Of a stretch of 59,150 bases of DNA, positions 1 through 29,441 are shown in pieces. The notes beneath the pieces are model-generated. The model did no database searches. It saw only the letters and a list, made by a program, of their open reading frames with translations, and had not been told where the DNA came from. The position numbers and the translations under genes are program-made. Each line of letters opens with the position of its first letter. The stretch's first letter is position 1. Source of the stretch: a virus; the IMG/VR virus record IMGVR_UViG_3300043015_001357, positions 1 through 59,150 of that record. One strand, written 5' to 3'.

Positions 1-240
1 AAACTCAACATATGCATCAAGAAACTCTTTCTGAGCAACAACGGCTTTTGAATATGCTTTCACATCTTTATACTGTCCCTTAATGGTGAACTTCGAAGTG
101 TTCTGTTCATTAAGATTCGCAATCATCTTAACGTCATCTCCATACATATATTTCAACAACTGCTTTGTCCACCAACCAATGGCCTCGGCTTCTGTCTCAT
201 TGAGCGTTCTTTTCGCTCTTTCCAAATCAATAACAAGCAT
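1..240 (-). CDS. Hypothetical protein, N-terminal part (runs off left edge)
   Basis: An open frame reads leftwards from an ATG at 238-240 and is still open at base 1, giving the first 80 residues. It begins MLVIDLERAKRTLNETEAEA. An AAGGAG ribosome site lies about 8 bases before the ATG. A TAAATAGT element at 259-266 and a terminator for the preceding gene lie just upstream, so this gene probably starts a transcription unit. It follows the gp26-like baseplate gene, so a tail or baseplate role is likely from context. I do not recognise the family from this fragment. Confidence 0.75.
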   Translation of the reverse strand, partial: MLVIDLERAKRTLNETEAEAIGWWTKQLLKYMYGDDVKMIANLNEQNTSKFTIKGQYKDVKAYSKAVVAQKEFLDAYVEF

Positions 241-272: not shown

Positions 273-295
273 AAAAAAATGCCCTGAAAGGGCAT
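273..295 (-). terminator. Rho-independent terminator after the gp26-like unit
   Basis: On the minus strand a 6-bp stem, ATGCCC pairing with GGGCAT across a TTTCA loop, is followed by a run of seven T. It sits exactly at the end of the frameshift-extension frame. This fits both frames belonging to one transcript that ends here. Confidence 0.85.
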
Positions 296-546
296 CAACT
301 TCTTTTCTTTGAGGCTTTTTCCATTTCCTTCTTCTCGTCTTCAAACTGTTTTCTCATTCTCTCACAGAACCAGTTTCGAAGTCCAATTGGAAGGTTATAT
401 ATCTCAGTAAATGACCATCCACCAAAATGCTTCATGATGAATATTTGTTCATATAAGGCTTGAGAATATTTATCGGTCAGGCCAAAAAAAGTCCGTATTA
501 AACGGCACCTCCATTTCTTGCGAATATCCACAAGAATTACACTCAA
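295..546 (-). CDS. Overlapping +1-frame extension of the gp26-like protein
   Basis: This 83-codon frame overlaps the last 77 bases of the gp26-like gene in the +1 frame. It has no ATG at its 5' end: the first start-like codon is TTG, with no ribosome site before it. The first internal ATG (MKHFGGW) also lacks one. The product carries YEQIFIMKHFGGW, then a LPIGLRNWF segment and a charged helical tail. I recall similar short proteins directly after the gp26-like gene in T4-like marine phages. A shift at the T7 run at 484-490 would join residue 279 of the upstream protein to 62 residues of this frame, giving a product of about 341 residues. This parallels the frameshifted tail-assembly chaperones of lambda-like phages. 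Independent initiation is the alternative. Confidence 0.65.
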   Translation of the reverse strand: MSVILVDIRKKWRCRLIRTFFGLTDKYSQALYEQIFIMKHFGGWSFTEIYNLPIGLRNWFCERMRKQFEDEKKEMEKASKKRS

Positions 547-1321
547 AAGCGCTTGTAACTTTTACATCGGGTGAAGCTAGCTTATAACATCCACGAAGCT
601 GTGTAGAGTCTAAAGTCGGCATATTATCAACATATCTTGCTATAATTGACCTATCGCTGTGACCTTCGATTGAGACGATCATTTGTTTGAACTGATCTGT
701 CAATATTGTGTCGGCCATTTTGCGTTTCTTTTTGTCTGTTGCAAGTTTAGCTAAGAACTGCTCGTCTCTTCCATCAAGAAGTCGGAACTCAATATTGAAG
801 CCGGAATATGGCATCTTGGTTGTGAAGTTTCCGTTTGGAAGTTTCTTGAGGTTGAGTTTTTCATTCTCTTGAGACTCATGTACATGTTGTTGCGTCAAGT
901 CAAAGTCAAACTGGGTTCTGGTTCCACAAGATGGACAACCAATTTGAGTTTTATAGTTTGCTCCATATCCTGAGATGCGAGCGGCAATAATGAGAGCGTT
1001 TCTGTCTCCAATCAAAAGGTCTTGTGCTTTGATGGACTTATCAACGATAAGAGAGTCAAGCATGCGTTCAATAGCAAGCCCCTTCTTGAGAAGTGTTTGA
1101 GAAGATAGAATGTCTTCCTCTTTTGCCGTCATGAATCTCATTTCAAGAACTTCTTTGCCGTGAAGTGGATGTCCTTCTGGGTAGCTTCCTTTTGATGGTA
1201 GCTCAACGAATTCTGTTGGCGCAACAAAGCTTAATGGGTCAAAAGCTTTTTCTACCGGTTGTTGTGGAGCCTCTGCTGGCTCTGGAGTGTGTCCTCCAAG
1301 TCTATCTTTGTTTCTGCTCAT
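470..1321 (-). CDS. T4 gp26-like baseplate hub assembly protein
   Basis: This 283-residue protein has a proline-rich N-terminus, then a region typical of T4-type gp26 baseplate proteins (VELPSKGSYPEGHPL, then MTAKEEDIL). It has two CxxC pairs, IGCPSCG near residue 125 and ECNSCGY near residue 265, which look like a split zinc-binding site. Family knowledge: gp26-like proteins are needed for assembly of the central baseplate hub. The gene follows the two tail-tube genes. Its last codons overlap a +1 frame at a run of seven T, discussed separately. The family call rests on recognised motifs, not on an alignment. Confidence 0.75.
   Translation of the reverse strand: MSRNKDRLGGHTPEPAEAPQQPVEKAFDPLSFVAPTEFVELPSKGSYPEGHPLHGKEVLEMRFMTAKEEDILSSQTLLKKGLAIERMLDSLIVDKSIKAQDLLIGDRNALIIAARISGYGANYKTQIGCPSCGTRTQFDFDLTQQHVHESQENEKLNLKKLPNGNFTTKMPYSGFNIEFRLLDGRDEQFLAKLATDKKKRKMADTILTDQFKQMIVSIEGHSDRSIIARYVDNMPTLDSTQLRGCYKLASPDVKVTSAFECNSCGYSQEMEVPFNTDFFWPDR
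484..490 (-). promoter_or_regulatory. Candidate +1 programmed frameshift site (T7 run)
   Basis: The gp26-like frame reads GAC TTT TTT TGG and stops four codons later (CCT GAC CGA TAA). Slipping one base forward within the seven T gives TTT TTT GGC CTG, which continues for 62 codons. A phenylalanine tRNA can re-pair on TTT after a +1 slip while the Trp codon waits in the A site. Confidence 0.5.
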
Positions 1322-1330
1322 TTATACCTC

Positions 1331-1834
1331 TTAAGTTAATGTTGCTGAGTCATATGCAACTGTGATTGTTATTTCAAGTAATTCATCTGAGGAGTAATCA
1401 AGGTCTCCGTATTTTATTGACTTGATGAATGGGTTTTTAAGGTTCCAAGTTTCAAGCGTGTTGCCATCTGCGTCTATCTTGCTTATAACAAAGTCTTTTT
1501 CGCCGTTATATTGGTTTTTTCTTATCCCATCCTCTCCTTTACTAGGAGGCAATGGACTATAACCGTTCATCCTTAATGAATCCAACAGTTCTTGCCCTTT
1601 GGTTGGCAAAAAATCATCTCCTGTGGGGAGATCAACAATTGTAATATCGATATCGTTCCAAGTAACAATGCCGGGATACTTTATCTTATGGTTGATAAGT
1701 TGATGCTCTGATACTGAAACCTCTGGAGATGGCTGAGTGACGGTCTTAGCATACCACATAGTTTCATCTCCAAATTGAATTTGAAAACGAAACTTGCGTA
1801 GTGGTTCAAGAGTACTTTCTGTCCAAAAAGCCAT
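1331..1834 (-). CDS. Tail tube protein, second copy (gp19-like)
   Basis: This 167-residue protein starts MAFWTESTLEPLRKFRFQIQ and aligns by eye along its length with the neighbouring 182-residue tube protein. Shared segments include the N-terminal MAFWTES..EP..FRFQ, a YPG.VTW segment, and YGDL.Y..DEL...T near the C-terminus. The T4 gp19 family has about 163 residues and stacks as hexameric rings inside the sheath. The spacing to the first copy is 8 bases and to the gp26-like gene 9 bases, so all three are co-transcribed. One copy may form the tube and the other a cap or specialised ring (T4 gp54/gp48 are tube-like), which sequence alone cannot settle. Confidence 0.8.
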   Translation of the reverse strand: MAFWTESTLEPLRKFRFQIQFGDETMWYAKTVTQPSPEVSVSEHQLINHKIKYPGIVTWNDIDITIVDLPTGDDFLPTKGQELLDSLRMNGYSPLPPSKGEDGIRKNQYNGEKDFVISKIDADGNTLETWNLKNPFIKSIKYGDLDYSSDELLEITITVAYDSATLT

Positions 1835-1842
1835 TTATGCTC

Positions 1843-2391
1843 CTAGCTTGATGTAGTTGTAACGAATTGACCAGTTCCATCAGCAGTTTCACAAGAAGCC
1901 CAATCATACTTAAAAGTCATATCAATAGTTCTGAGTTCGTCATTATCATAAGCAAGATCGCCGTATTTAGCAGATAGTATAAAAGCATTATTGAGAGTCC
2001 AAGTTTCTACAGCGTCTCCACCTGCATCTAATATTGTTATAACAACTTGCCCAAGAGCTTCTGTGGCTTTTGCTTTAGAAACTGTAGTCTCAAGATCTGT
2101 TTCTTGCTTAACTTTATAATTTAGATTAGAAGTGTTCTTCCCAATGACATACTCATTGGTTTTCTTTACTGCATCGATGGAAATAGGATCAACAAGAGTC
2201 AAGGAAACGTCTTGCCAAGTCACACGACCAGGGAAGAAGTATTTGTTATCCAAGTAATTGTGTTCAACTGTTGCAACATCGAAACTAGGTGTGGTTACAT
2301 TCTTCGCCCACCAGATTACGTCATCTCCGAGTTGAACCTGAAATCTAAAGTTTCTTTTTGGTTCTATAGAACTTTCTGTCCAAAATGCCAT
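1843..2391 (-). CDS. 19: Tail tube protein (gp19-like)
   Basis: This 182-residue protein directly follows the sheath gene, the canonical place of the T4 tube gene. It opens MAFWTESSIEPKRNFRFQVQ and has FFPGRVTWQDVSLTLVDP and a C-terminal ETWTLNNAFILSAKYGDL. These match the gp19 tail-tube family. It is 15 residues longer than the downstream paralogue because of a longer middle region (YKVKQETDLETTVSKAKA). An ACTATTTA element and GGAG ribosome site precede it. This is the more likely main tube subunit because of its position. Confidence 0.85.
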   Translation of the reverse strand: MAFWTESSIEPKRNFRFQVQLGDDVIWWAKNVTTPSFDVATVEHNYLDNKYFFPGRVTWQDVSLTLVDPISIDAVKKTNEYVIGKNTSNLNYKVKQETDLETTVSKAKATEALGQVVITILDAGGDAVETWTLNNAFILSAKYGDLAYDNDELRTIDMTFKYDWASCETADGTGQFVTTTSS

Positions 2392-2425: not shown

Positions 2426-5266
2426 TTAGAACTCAATTCCGGAGCGTGTGATATTGAAATCGATAGCAATGAACTCAATAGCTTTAGCAGGTTTGATGAA
2501 AACCTTAGCATACATGATATTGCGATCTTGATAATCAGGTGTTGTTGTAGTCTCATCTAGAACAAGTTTGTATTCTGAAATACCAAAACGAGTCTTAGCA
2601 TCTGAGAGAACTGGATTAGCACCAGCCTTGAAACGGTTCCAAGTAGCGCGAACGTTGCTATCGAATAAAATGTTCTGAGCAACAACGCCAATCTTCTTCT
2701 TAAGGTGAACCATCAAGCGGCGAACGTTGATACGGTCAAGAGCGGAAGGTGCCTGTTGAAGAGTCTTCTGTCCGAATACAACCGGTCCTTCACCAGGGAA
2801 GTTAGCGATAGGGTTGATGTTTACTTGATACAAGTCATCACGATCTGCTTTGTTAAGGTTCTCAACTGGACGCTGAACACGAGGTCCTTGATTTCCACCA
2901 AGTTGACGGATACCACCACGGTTGAAGCCAGCAGGTGCAAACCATGGAGCACCAGATGCAGCATCACTTTGAGCGAGAACACCAAGCCCAGCAACAGATG
3001 CAGGAACACGGAGACCCATATCCTCACCAGCAAGAACTACAGGTGGGTAGTATGCAGCAGCATAGCTTGTATTGAAATCTTGTTCGTTTGCATCTGTGAT
3101 AGCTTCAGCAGCAGTACCGTTAGCATATACACCTTGATTATCGTGTTCTGCTTTATGACCAGAGTCAAAGTCAATGATAGCGAGAGCATCCCCACGATCT
3201 TCTGTATTGCTAACAAGTTCTCTTCTCAAATCATCTTGAAGAAGACCAGGCATTGAGATAACGTCATATTGAACAACTTCTTTATCACTGGTGATATCAA
3301 GTACTTTCTGAACTGAGTAGTGAGCATAATGCCTAGTTGGTGAAGTGCTATCCGATAATGCTTGAGTGCTTGTGCTTGAGAATGGGTCAACAAGAGTGAT
3401 ATCAACACCATCTGTTCCACCAAAGAATGGAGCTTGGAACTGCTTGACTTTTTTAACTTGAATAAGTTCAGCAGAGCCTGATTCGGCAGTCACAGCATCA
3501 CCAGTAGCATGAGAACCTGCTTTCCAATAGTAACGGTTAGAGTTAGAGTCGTGCACGATTTCATCAAGAGTAAAGATGAAACTAGTTTCTGTCTGCGCAC
3601 CAGCATCATGGATATCATGTCCATTAGCTAGAGGACGAACGAGGTCGATGTAATCATCTTGCTTACGGAAGTATTGTGTAGGTTGGTCATCGCTACGGAA
3701 TTGTCTTACACCAAATACATCGCTATATTTGTAGTCTTGACCTTTCTTGGAGCCGGTTGTTGTAAGCTGAAGTTCAGGGAAAGTCAGTGAGCAAGTAACA
3801 TCGACTTGAAGATCTGCAAAGAAACTCTGTTCGTGACCCAAAGCAACAACACTATCCTTTGGTGAAGTTACATATGCAGTTGCCTCACCTTCAGAAAGTT
3901 CGGTAGACCCAGAAGTGATTTGGAAGTCTTTGAATTTAGCAGGTCCATAGAATCCGAATGGAAGTGTATATTTATCATCGATACCAGCTTTCCAATCATC
4001 AGCCATCTCAACATAAACATAGTTTGAGTTGTTAGGGTAGTTTCCTTTAACAACATATTTTTCAGTAGCTGTATTCCACTCTTGGAATGTATCACCAATT
4101 TTCTTTCCAACGAAGTCATCGGAGTTTTCATTGAGGTTACATCCACTGAACTGTTCTACAATTTGACCACCGTTATCAACGATAGATACAGTGAAAGTAG
4201 AGTTAGGGTTCTCTTGGGTTCCAAGAAGAAGGTCAGAGATACGAGCAACGTATGCTTTCTGGAAGTAGTCACCAGTATGAAGAGAATTCAAACGGAAAAG
4301 CTTCTTCATATTTGAAGCACTGTATGAAGCAGTTTCTTGTTGAGGACTTGGGTCTCGTGCAATGAACCAACCTGTTTTAGAAACAGAAGCTTCACCTTCG
4401 TGGTTTGCAAGGTTATTATCGTCAGCAGAACCAGAAGTCAATGGAAGAAGGATAGCATATTGCTTACCGTTAGCTTCCGAATCAGCAGCTAATAGAGTTT
4501 CATAAACATGTGTTTCGAATGTTTCACCCAAGAAATATTTTTCTGTATTGACTTGGTTGATACCATTAAGTAACTGTGGATTTGTGTTAAGTTTGTTACG
4601 AATGAAACCGTTCTTGTTAGCAACGTTGAAATCAACAGGATACTTTTCTGTTGTAGTGCCATCATGAATCTCAATGGTAATACCAGCAAAGAACTTAGAC
4701 TCACACTGCATCAATACACCAACAGATGAAGTTGTATCTAGAGTACCAGCGATAGTACCGGATAGAGATACCGCAGCGCCTTTGGTGTAAATAACCGCTC
4801 CGAGCGTACCATTTGATTCCGCACCAGCACTTGCAGAAGGCATAATGAAAAGGCCGTAAGCAGCAGAAGTCCCAGCCTCAGTTGTGTCAAGTGTTTCACC
4901 GGTATTCCAACCAGCAGTAGTATATCCTGAATCTTGATTAGCAGAATCTTCACCAGCAAGACGAACAAAAGTCACAGGGGAAGTCTGTGTGCTCAACCAT
5001 GCTTGTGCAGCATAGAGTCCGTAAGTTGGAAGTTTTGTGTTGCCTGATCTCCAAATATCGCTATTGGCATCTTTACCGCTTTGAGGGCGACCAAAAACTG
5101 TGTATAGATCATCCAAGTTCTTAACACGAACTGGTTGCATTGCTGGCCCACGAAAGGCTTGACCGATAATAAGAGCGCCATCTTCAGTTGTCTCAACGGC
5201 AACTTGACTCTCATCAACTTCACGAAGAAGGATGTCGGGTGATATAAAATCAAATTTACTAGGCAT
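2426..5266 (-). CDS. 18: Contractile tail sheath protein (gp18-like)
   Basis: This 946-residue protein begins MPSKFDFISPDILLREVDES, the usual sheath opening (PG/SP..L.EVD). It continues with GALIIGQAFRGPAMQPVRV and ends with a conserved sheath C-terminal domain: RINVRRLMVHLKKKIG, then NPVLSDAKTRFGI, then AKVFIKPAKAIEFIAIDF. Sheath subunits polymerise around the tube and contract on infection. It is clearly longer than T4 gp18 (659 residues). The extra length lies in the middle (about residues 130-650), where sheaths carry variable surface domains. It sits between the sheath stabiliser and tube genes. The AAGGAG ribosome site and ACTATTTA element mark it as the head of a strong late unit. Confidence 0.93.
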   Translation of the reverse strand: MPSKFDFISPDILLREVDESQVAVETTEDGALIIGQAFRGPAMQPVRVKNLDDLYTVFGRPQSGKDANSDIWRSGNTKLPTYGLYAAQAWLSTQTSPVTFVRLAGEDSANQDSGYTTAGWNTGETLDTTEAGTSAAYGLFIMPSASAGAESNGTLGAVIYTKGAAVSLSGTIAGTLDTTSSVGVLMQCESKFFAGITIEIHDGTTTEKYPVDFNVANKNGFIRNKLNTNPQLLNGINQVNTEKYFLGETFETHVYETLLAADSEANGKQYAILLPLTSGSADDNNLANHEGEASVSKTGWFIARDPSPQQETASYSASNMKKLFRLNSLHTGDYFQKAYVARISDLLLGTQENPNSTFTVSIVDNGGQIVEQFSGCNLNENSDDFVGKKIGDTFQEWNTATEKYVVKGNYPNNSNYVYVEMADDWKAGIDDKYTLPFGFYGPAKFKDFQITSGSTELSEGEATAYVTSPKDSVVALGHEQSFFADLQVDVTCSLTFPELQLTTTGSKKGQDYKYSDVFGVRQFRSDDQPTQYFRKQDDYIDLVRPLANGHDIHDAGAQTETSFIFTLDEIVHDSNSNRYYWKAGSHATGDAVTAESGSAELIQVKKVKQFQAPFFGGTDGVDITLVDPFSSTSTQALSDSTSPTRHYAHYSVQKVLDITSDKEVVQYDVISMPGLLQDDLRRELVSNTEDRGDALAIIDFDSGHKAEHDNQGVYANGTAAEAITDANEQDFNTSYAAAYYPPVVLAGEDMGLRVPASVAGLGVLAQSDAASGAPWFAPAGFNRGGIRQLGGNQGPRVQRPVENLNKADRDDLYQVNINPIANFPGEGPVVFGQKTLQQAPSALDRINVRRLMVHLKKKIGVVAQNILFDSNVRATWNRFKAGANPVLSDAKTRFGISEYKLVLDETTTTPDYQDRNIMYAKVFIKPAKAIEFIAIDFNITRSGIEF

Positions 5267-28727: not shown

Positions 28728-29441
28728 CTAGTTTACTAAAGAAGAATATATTTGACCAAATCTATATGAAGCAAAAGAAAACACTTTCTTCTCAAAATCT
28801 TCTTTATTTAAATAGTCATTTGATTCATGGTTTGCTTTGTACATATCCAACAAGGTGTCGCCGGCTGAATTATTAACTTTCTCTAGAGAATGATGTGAGG
28901 CGTTTTTATCATCGTGTTTTTTATATGGCGTTCCACAGTCATCTTCTGGGTCATCTGGTGTTTCATGTGTTGTGTAATCAAACTCATCATTACCTTTAGC
29001 GGTCTTTCTCTTGGTATATTCAGAACTATTGGCCATCTTATTCCATACTCGCTTTGCTCCCGGAAGTGTTCCGGAATACTTATCAGATGTTAAACCGGCT
29101 CCATCGGGAATAGCAGCAAAAGCAAGAGAGTATAAGAGTTTACCAAATTCTTGACCTTGCAAAGAAGGTTCGACATAAACAGCAGAGACTTGAAATGTGT
29201 TTGGGATACATTGTAATCTATCATCACCGGGCTCTGTTATTTGCATTGCTGCAATATAACCAATAACATAAAAGTCATCAACGTACTTTTGCTTTCTATA
29301 TAAAACAATGTGATGCTCTTCGTCATCATCATCCCAATGATAAACACACAAGTCTTTTTCTAAATGGTCATCGTCATAAGGAACAGTCGGCGCTGCCTCA
29401 TTTAAAACAAACTTTCGCCATTCATTCAATATCTTTTTCAT
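28728..29441 (-). CDS. Tagged GNAT-like acetyltransferase (candidate capsid cargo)
   Basis: A 237-residue protein starting MKKILNEWRKFVLNE|AAP. The tag is of the WRK type and ends in LNE|A, an ideal T4-type prohead-protease site. The body has GNAT features: a central strand (FQVSAVYVEP, about residues 83-92) followed by SLQGQEFGKLLYSLA, matching the acetyl-CoA pyrophosphate loop QxxGxG/A with variation. LTSDKYSGTLPGAKRVWNKM follows. A related body occurs in the 231-residue protein at 37160-37855 behind a different tag. The C-terminal third is charged and unassigned. Substrate unknown; modification of a host protein or RNA is plausible. The ATG overlaps the upstream stop. Confidence 0.75.
   Translation of the reverse strand: MKKILNEWRKFVLNEAAPTVPYDDDHLEKDLCVYHWDDDDEEHHIVLYRKQKYVDDFYVIGYIAAMQITEPGDDRLQCIPNTFQVSAVYVEPSLQGQEFGKLLYSLAFAAIPDGAGLTSDKYSGTLPGAKRVWNKMANSSEYTKRKTAKGNDEFDYTTHETPDDPEDDCGTPYKKHDDKNASHHSLEKVNNSAGDTLLDMYKANHESNDYLNKEDFEKKVFSFASYRFGQIYSSLVN

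Follow-up and report, generated by a model that had tools for sequence, protein, structure and literature searches.

The window, by which we mean the whole 59,150-nucleotide stretch of viral DNA analysed in this work, carries near its beginning a set of tail genes encoded on the minus strand (Table 1). The zero-frame product of the gp26-like gene, referred to here as TAC-N, matches PF12322 with 58.3 bits against a cut-off of 24.5, and the 3' end of this gene (470-1321, minus strand) reads GAC TTT TTT TGG CCT GAC CGA TAA. The +1 frame is open from 295 to 546 on the same strand and overlaps the zero frame by 77 bases; when TTTT is read as one Phe, the two frames join into a fusion of 341 residues (TAC-NC) ending in the stretch termed TAC-C. 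An earlier examination of the letters alone (the sequence-only reading) had arrived at the same 341-residue fusion, and its coordinates (open frame 295-546, overlap of 77 bases, T7 at 484-490, four codons before the zero-frame stop) are all correct. Its remark that the +1 frame begins with neither ATG nor a ribosome site is borne out: in the window no ATG precedes the slip point in this frame, the earliest start-like codon is TTG at 546, and the first ATG lies well 3' of the slip point and has no ribosome site. Among the long minus-strand genes of the window, T7 in the coding sense occurs at this site only, and TTTTTTTGG has a single occurrence on the minus strand. The terminator-like hairpin behind the second frame, which had been taken as proof that both frames share a transcript, is present and compatible with such sharing, which we infer rather than regard as proven.

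Table 1. Features of the putative tail chaperone locus and its neighbours in the window
Feature	Position	Strand	Evidence
Beginning of next gene, cut by window end	1..240	-	No informative family match
Terminator-like hairpin and T run, directly 3' of second frame	278..296	-	Sequence
Second-frame stop TGA	295-297	-	Sequence
+1-frame stretch TAC-C, 62 codons, GLTDKYSQ...KKRS	298..483	-	pN/pS; weak DUF6760; profile match to cyanophage gp51
Zero-frame stop TAA, four sense codons past slip	470..472	-	Sequence
gp26-like gene, zero-frame product TAC-N, 283 aa	470..1321	-	PF12322 T4_baseplate E 1.2e-15; phrog_150 baseplate hub E 1.5e-20
Slip site TTT TTT TGG (T7 at 484-490), predicted +1 shift on UUU codon	482..490	-	Conservation and synonymous constraint
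Internal Shine-Dalgarno-like GGAGGT, possible stimulator	507..512	-	17 nt before first slip-site Phe codon, counted from GGAGG
Tail tube protein, upstream neighbour	1331..1834	-	phrog_4542 E 8.2e-22
Second tail tube paralogue	1843..2391	-	phrog_4542 E 4.5e-17
Tail sheath	2426..5266	-	phrog_23 E 1e-52

Relatives were compared in three sets: 80 of the window protein, 80 of the protein of phage immuto and 80 of the protein of cyanophage S-PM2. Group A comprises 78 window-type loci together with immuto and Mel-JY01, and group B comprises 79 scored loci; two loci among these groups are cut by contig ends. In all 159 loci (78 of group A, 79 of group B and the two phage isolates) a homologous extension is found, always in the +1 frame, the loci being relatives of common ancestry and their counts therefore not independent events. 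All group A sites read [T/C]TT TGG followed by NCT, with the variants TTTTTTTGGCCT (66 loci), TTTCTTTGGCCT (5), TTCTTTTGGCCT (5) and four others; the 79 scored group B sites are TTTTTTTGG (40), TTTCTTTGG (34), TTTCTATGG (4) and TTTCTTTAC (1). Nearly all sites of both groups conform to TTT-[TTT/CTT]-TGG, the broken variants being TTTCTTT, TTCTTTT and TTTCTA. An out-of-sample scan of bacterial genome bins recovered the +1 arrangement in 12 of 12 evaluable loci at 35-43% identity, 11 of them carrying TTTTTTTGGCCT; one relative that shows neither frame (L277, 27% identity) was set aside from this count. The +1 arrangement extends to phages SP-15, LIS04 and GXN1 and to an uncultured phage of 484 kb, in all of which a U or C comes after UUU. 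The slip-site comparison proposed in the sequence-only reading therefore shows motif and extension conserved in groups A and B and in the 12 later loci, and the pattern named there as contrary evidence, relatives in which the second frame has a regular ATG with a ribosome site while the T run is not conserved, was not found.

Selection was assessed at the site and in the second frame by measures computed without regard to shared ancestry: synonymous-codon conservation is highest at the slip site (excess of 0.33 in a 5-codon window; gene mean 0, sd 0.06), 86 of 89 dereplicated loci use TTT as the first Phe codon, where the background is 75% (naive P 5e-8), and pN/pS is 0.11 in the second frame vs 1.09 and 1.48 in the remaining two. 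These ratios indicate strong purifying selection on the second frame, whose coding status is established by comparison. This frame could in principle be an ordinary separate gene translated from an internal start or by re-initiation, as might be suggested by TTG or ATG codons in the overlap at some loci, by the internal GGAGGT of group A and by the small genes annotated at the second frame in immuto, Mel-JY01 and SP-15. However, no conserved start codon was found in the +1 frame across the 159 loci, 25 of these lack any ATG, GTG or TTG upstream of the slip point, and in several loci the frame is open for only 2-4 codons before the slip, so that independent initiation cannot account for the loci in general. 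The slip codons are synonymously constrained, and the protein conservation of the second frame starts exactly at the slip point (GLTDKY). A separate gene is accordingly considered very unlikely.

The sequence-only reading had regarded the T run itself as the slip element, and seven T are present in the window and most relatives; the element that is conserved, however, is UUU followed by U or C. The same run would allow RNA polymerase to slip and produce mRNAs that have gained or lost U. Yet it is reduced to 3-4 T in 10 of 80 group A loci and in about half of group B, and because the frame arrangement is kept in these broken variants, the event is attributed to a ribosomal +1 slip on UUU rather than to transcription, which is a highly improbable source. 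Homopolymers are also error-prone in sequencing and assembly, but an error of this kind, already of negligible probability, is refuted by the many independent contigs and cultured phages that carry the site. Ribosomal slippage by -2 instead of +1 reaches the same frame and would add one extra Phe, and the lambda-like phage Mu is a case of -2 frameshifting. Some apparent +1 cases are really -2 at GUU_UUU (PMC10885494). Against this, the variants TTT CTT TGG, TTC TTT TGG and TTT CTA TGG re-pair well for +1 and poorly for -2, and we consider the -2 slip unlikely.

The +1 programmed frameshift predicted by the sequence-only reading is thus strongly supported by the comparative evidence of slip site, extension and second-frame selection. 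A single model covers every variant, namely that the P-site tRNA-Phe leaves UUU and pairs anew with the UUU or UUC that starts one base further. In the window, most ribosomes would end at TAA and release the short TAC-N of 283 aa, whereas a minority would reach GAC UUU UUU UGG and move forward by one base, the P-site tRNA-Phe re-pairing from UUU to the overlapping UUU with UGG (Trp) waiting in the A site. The shifted ribosomes would read GGC CUG ACC and onwards for 62 codons, yielding the 341-aa TAC-NC with its C-terminal helical domain. UUU is reported to belong to the codons that rank next to CUU for +1 slippage in the RF2 context (PMC10885494). The A-site UGG is a sense codon used at 9.4 per 1000, i.e. 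not extremely rare, and thus offers no ready cause for a pause, which counts against the model. Few +1 sites whose A-site codon is a sense codon are known in bacteria or their viruses.

In group A the spacing from GGAGG to the first slip-site Phe is 17 nt in 71 of 79 loci, and the Glu codon within the GGAGG column is GAG in 54 of 54 cases vs 37% elsewhere, which indicates that nucleotides are kept and not the protein alone. Group B has no internal GGAGGT. The idea that this element serves to start translation of the second frame was rejected, as no +1-frame start codon stands at a fixed distance from it across loci. It was likewise rejected as a Shine-Dalgarno signal of the prfB type: the prfB spacing is about 3 nt, whereas GGAGG lies 17 nt upstream. 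Because the spacing exceeds that of prfB, stimulation of the +1 slip by GGAGGT is a guess. No conserved downstream RNA structure was detected by RNAalifold on 16 to 46 sequences or by single-sequence folding, and an Rfam search gave no match.

The identity of the gene was inferred from its family and its neighbourhood. T4 gp26 and T4 gp51 each match PF12322, and Vladimirov et al. 2022 (PMID 34826709), according to PMC10885494 and PMC12846349, identified the T4-like chaperone genes and proposed gp26 and gp51 as the short and long T4 tail chaperone, respectively. In annotated isolates the gene order is sheath, tube, gp26-like gene, second frame and tape measure; the next large gene encodes the tape measure protein in immuto and LIS04 and a putative tail protein in SP-15. 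At the place of the truncated gene at the window end, one close relative (L004) has a 119-aa ORF followed by a 704-aa tape-measure-like ORF, for which the family search returned no match. Because tube and sheath genes precede it and the tape measure gene follows in relatives, the gp26-like gene occupies the position of a tail assembly chaperone; genes of frameshifted tail chaperones have the tail tube gene on one side and the tape measure gene on the other. A protein search of the 59-kb record, which is a fragment, revealed one PF12322-type locus, the one with the frame overlap. The two tail tube paralogues stand in tandem between sheath and chaperone. The sheath protein is very long (946 aa), which suggests inserted surface domains.

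The most fitting description of the protein is therefore a tail assembly chaperone with short (TAC-N) and long (TAC-NC) forms, and not a structural part of the baseplate. The earlier assignment to a gp26-like baseplate gene holds as to gp26 (PF12322, phrog_150), and tail assembly chaperone is the better name; the label "baseplate hub" conceals the chaperone. We consider it very probable that the locus encodes the tail assembly chaperone of a T4-like contractile-tailed phage, made as TAC-N and, by a +1 slip, as TAC-NC. As a probable chaperone gene, the window case is the T4-like counterpart of lambda G/GT and does not stand apart from the lambda-like frameshifted chaperones that the sequence-only reading mentioned. 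By analogy with lambda gpG/gpGT, the tape measure protein would carry a coat of many TAC-N and few TAC-NC copies, with TAC-C serving to draw in tail tube subunits.

The extensions of groups A and B are homologous (hhalign 99.7%); by the same program the group A extension matches the cyanophage extension (84%) and the latter residues 209-244 of T4 gp51 (69%), while direct profile comparison of the window TAC-C with T4 gp51 gave no match. The second frame resembles DUF6760 (PF20546), a family of unknown function, with weak scores below the cut-off (E 0.0014 for 295-546 in the window and E 0.00017 for 3824-4006 in relative L054), which suggests that DUF6760 may be a tail-chaperone C-terminal domain; no literature on this family was found. 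An AlphaFold2 model of the fusion, for which four rows from phage records were left out of the input alignment, has a mean pLDDT of 86.7 and a helical TAC-C. The only stretch with pLDDT under 50 is the junction at 275-282, which points to a linker between the domains. Foldseek against the PDB gave no match at E 0.001, and a search of solved structures by sequence gave no relevant match. When 46 Foldseek candidates were realigned by VIA-align, the top two were 3fgx (Z 6.8, rmsd 4.4, 86 residues) and the HK97 chaperone 2ob9 (Z 5.7, rmsd 8.1, 89 residues), followed by a next best Z of 4.3, values under 8 being attainable by chance. Both structures are named as tail chaperones (PMC9603447). Comparison establishes the gene order of a tail chaperone and points to a possible chaperone fold; a chaperone function is probable.

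Several known systems resemble the locus in part. T4 gp26/gp51 share the PF12322 match and the division into a short form and a long form with a C-terminal extension, but in T4 these are two separate genes on opposite strands, whereas the window has one gene and a frameshift. Lambda gpG/gpGT and HK97 gp13/14 also consist of two overlapping frames before the tape measure gene, and a chaperone-like fold of the N-terminal domain may be common to them and the window (Z in the chance range); the lambda and HK97 genes shift by -1 on other heptamers, and no sequence similarity to the window locus was detected. The forward slip by P-site re-pairing is shared with prfB (CUU_UGA) and Listeria phage PSA (CCC_UGA), and a prfB-like CTT_TGG is present in some relatives of the window; those are different genes with a stop in the A site, in contrast to the sense codon TGG and the Shine-Dalgarno-like element 17 nt away in the window. 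In HSTV-2, an unrelated archaeal virus (a haloarchaeal myovirus), the tail chaperone frameshift is reported as very likely +1 (PMC5009743).

A further parallel is offered by cyanophage gp26/gp51 (S-PM2 and others), where a TAC-N with a Phe-Phe poly-U site at its very end is followed by an extension of 57-64 residues ahead of the next tail gene; there the frame is -1, not +1. The -1 arrangement on U_UUU_UUC (T TTT TTC) was found in 80 of 80 loci of the cyanophage group, and the second slip-site Phe (F278) is one of five invariant columns across the +1 and -1 groups. Cyanophage gp26 (L091/L101 from S-PM2, L183-L262) ends in this canonical -1 heptamer. The 57-aa cyanophage "gp51" is most likely the -1 extension of gp26 and not a separate gene. 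Agrobacterium jumbo phage Atu_ph07 and the uncultured jumbo phage LR756511 likewise end gp26 with T TTT TTC and carry a long -1 extension (L088 3280-3330, L084 3150-3270). In a FastTree tree of TAC-N, group A, group B, Mel-JY01 and one jumbo phage cluster together (0.96) with SP-15-like phages beside them, cyanophages with T4 stand apart (0.99), and one jumbo phage with a -1 frame is placed near SP-15 with weak support (0.59); from this grouping, frameshift direction follows ancestry.

A broader scenario, which we hold to be about equally likely to be right or wrong, is that the T4-like tail chaperones are all homologous and that the shift changed direction within this family. Cyanophages would move by -1 on U_UUU_UUC, SP-15-like phages and a large, mostly uncultured clade from aquatic settings (window, immuto, Mel-JY01) would move by +1 on UUU-Y, and T4 would have no shift at all. 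Both directions would rely on one and the same Phe-Phe end of TAC-N, and the GGAGGT added in the clade of the window, at the unusual distance of 17 nt, would stimulate the +1 slip before a sense codon. The homologous Phe-Phe ends, with a -1 and a +1 branch, provide a natural replicated data set in which near-identical sequence would send ribosomes forward or back.

Tail-chaperone frameshifting is classic and widely conserved "except T4" (PMC5009743), and -1 poly-T slip signals are known in T4-like chaperones (PMC12846349). As the T4-like chaperones have been assigned (Vladimirov et al. 2022, as represented in citing papers) and -1 slips already cited, a gp26-related frameshift is not new in kind, and the remark of the sequence-only reading that it knew of no described gp26 case is out of date. 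No description of a +1 case in the T4-like chaperone family was found in the literature, Vladimirov et al. 2022 being covered via the papers that cite it. The +1 direction, together with the GGAGGT conserved 17 nt upstream in the clade of the window, appears new, and the +1 slip is an unusual version of tail-chaperone frameshifting in T4-like phages. It also calls for a correction of annotation in immuto, Mel-JY01 and SP-15, whose records either lack the second frame or show a spurious small gene in its place.

Elsewhere in the window, a peptide of the type MKxIxExWRKFLxE opens four otherwise different minus-strand proteins with starts at 29441, 28307, 11210 and 9104 (MKKILNEWRKFVLNE, MIMESWRRFLKEE, MKVIIESWRKYLAEY and MKLILENWNKFLKEQ). 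T4 internal proteins carry a capsid-targeting tag of similar style and, by analogy, the peptide may mark proteins that are packaged in the head.
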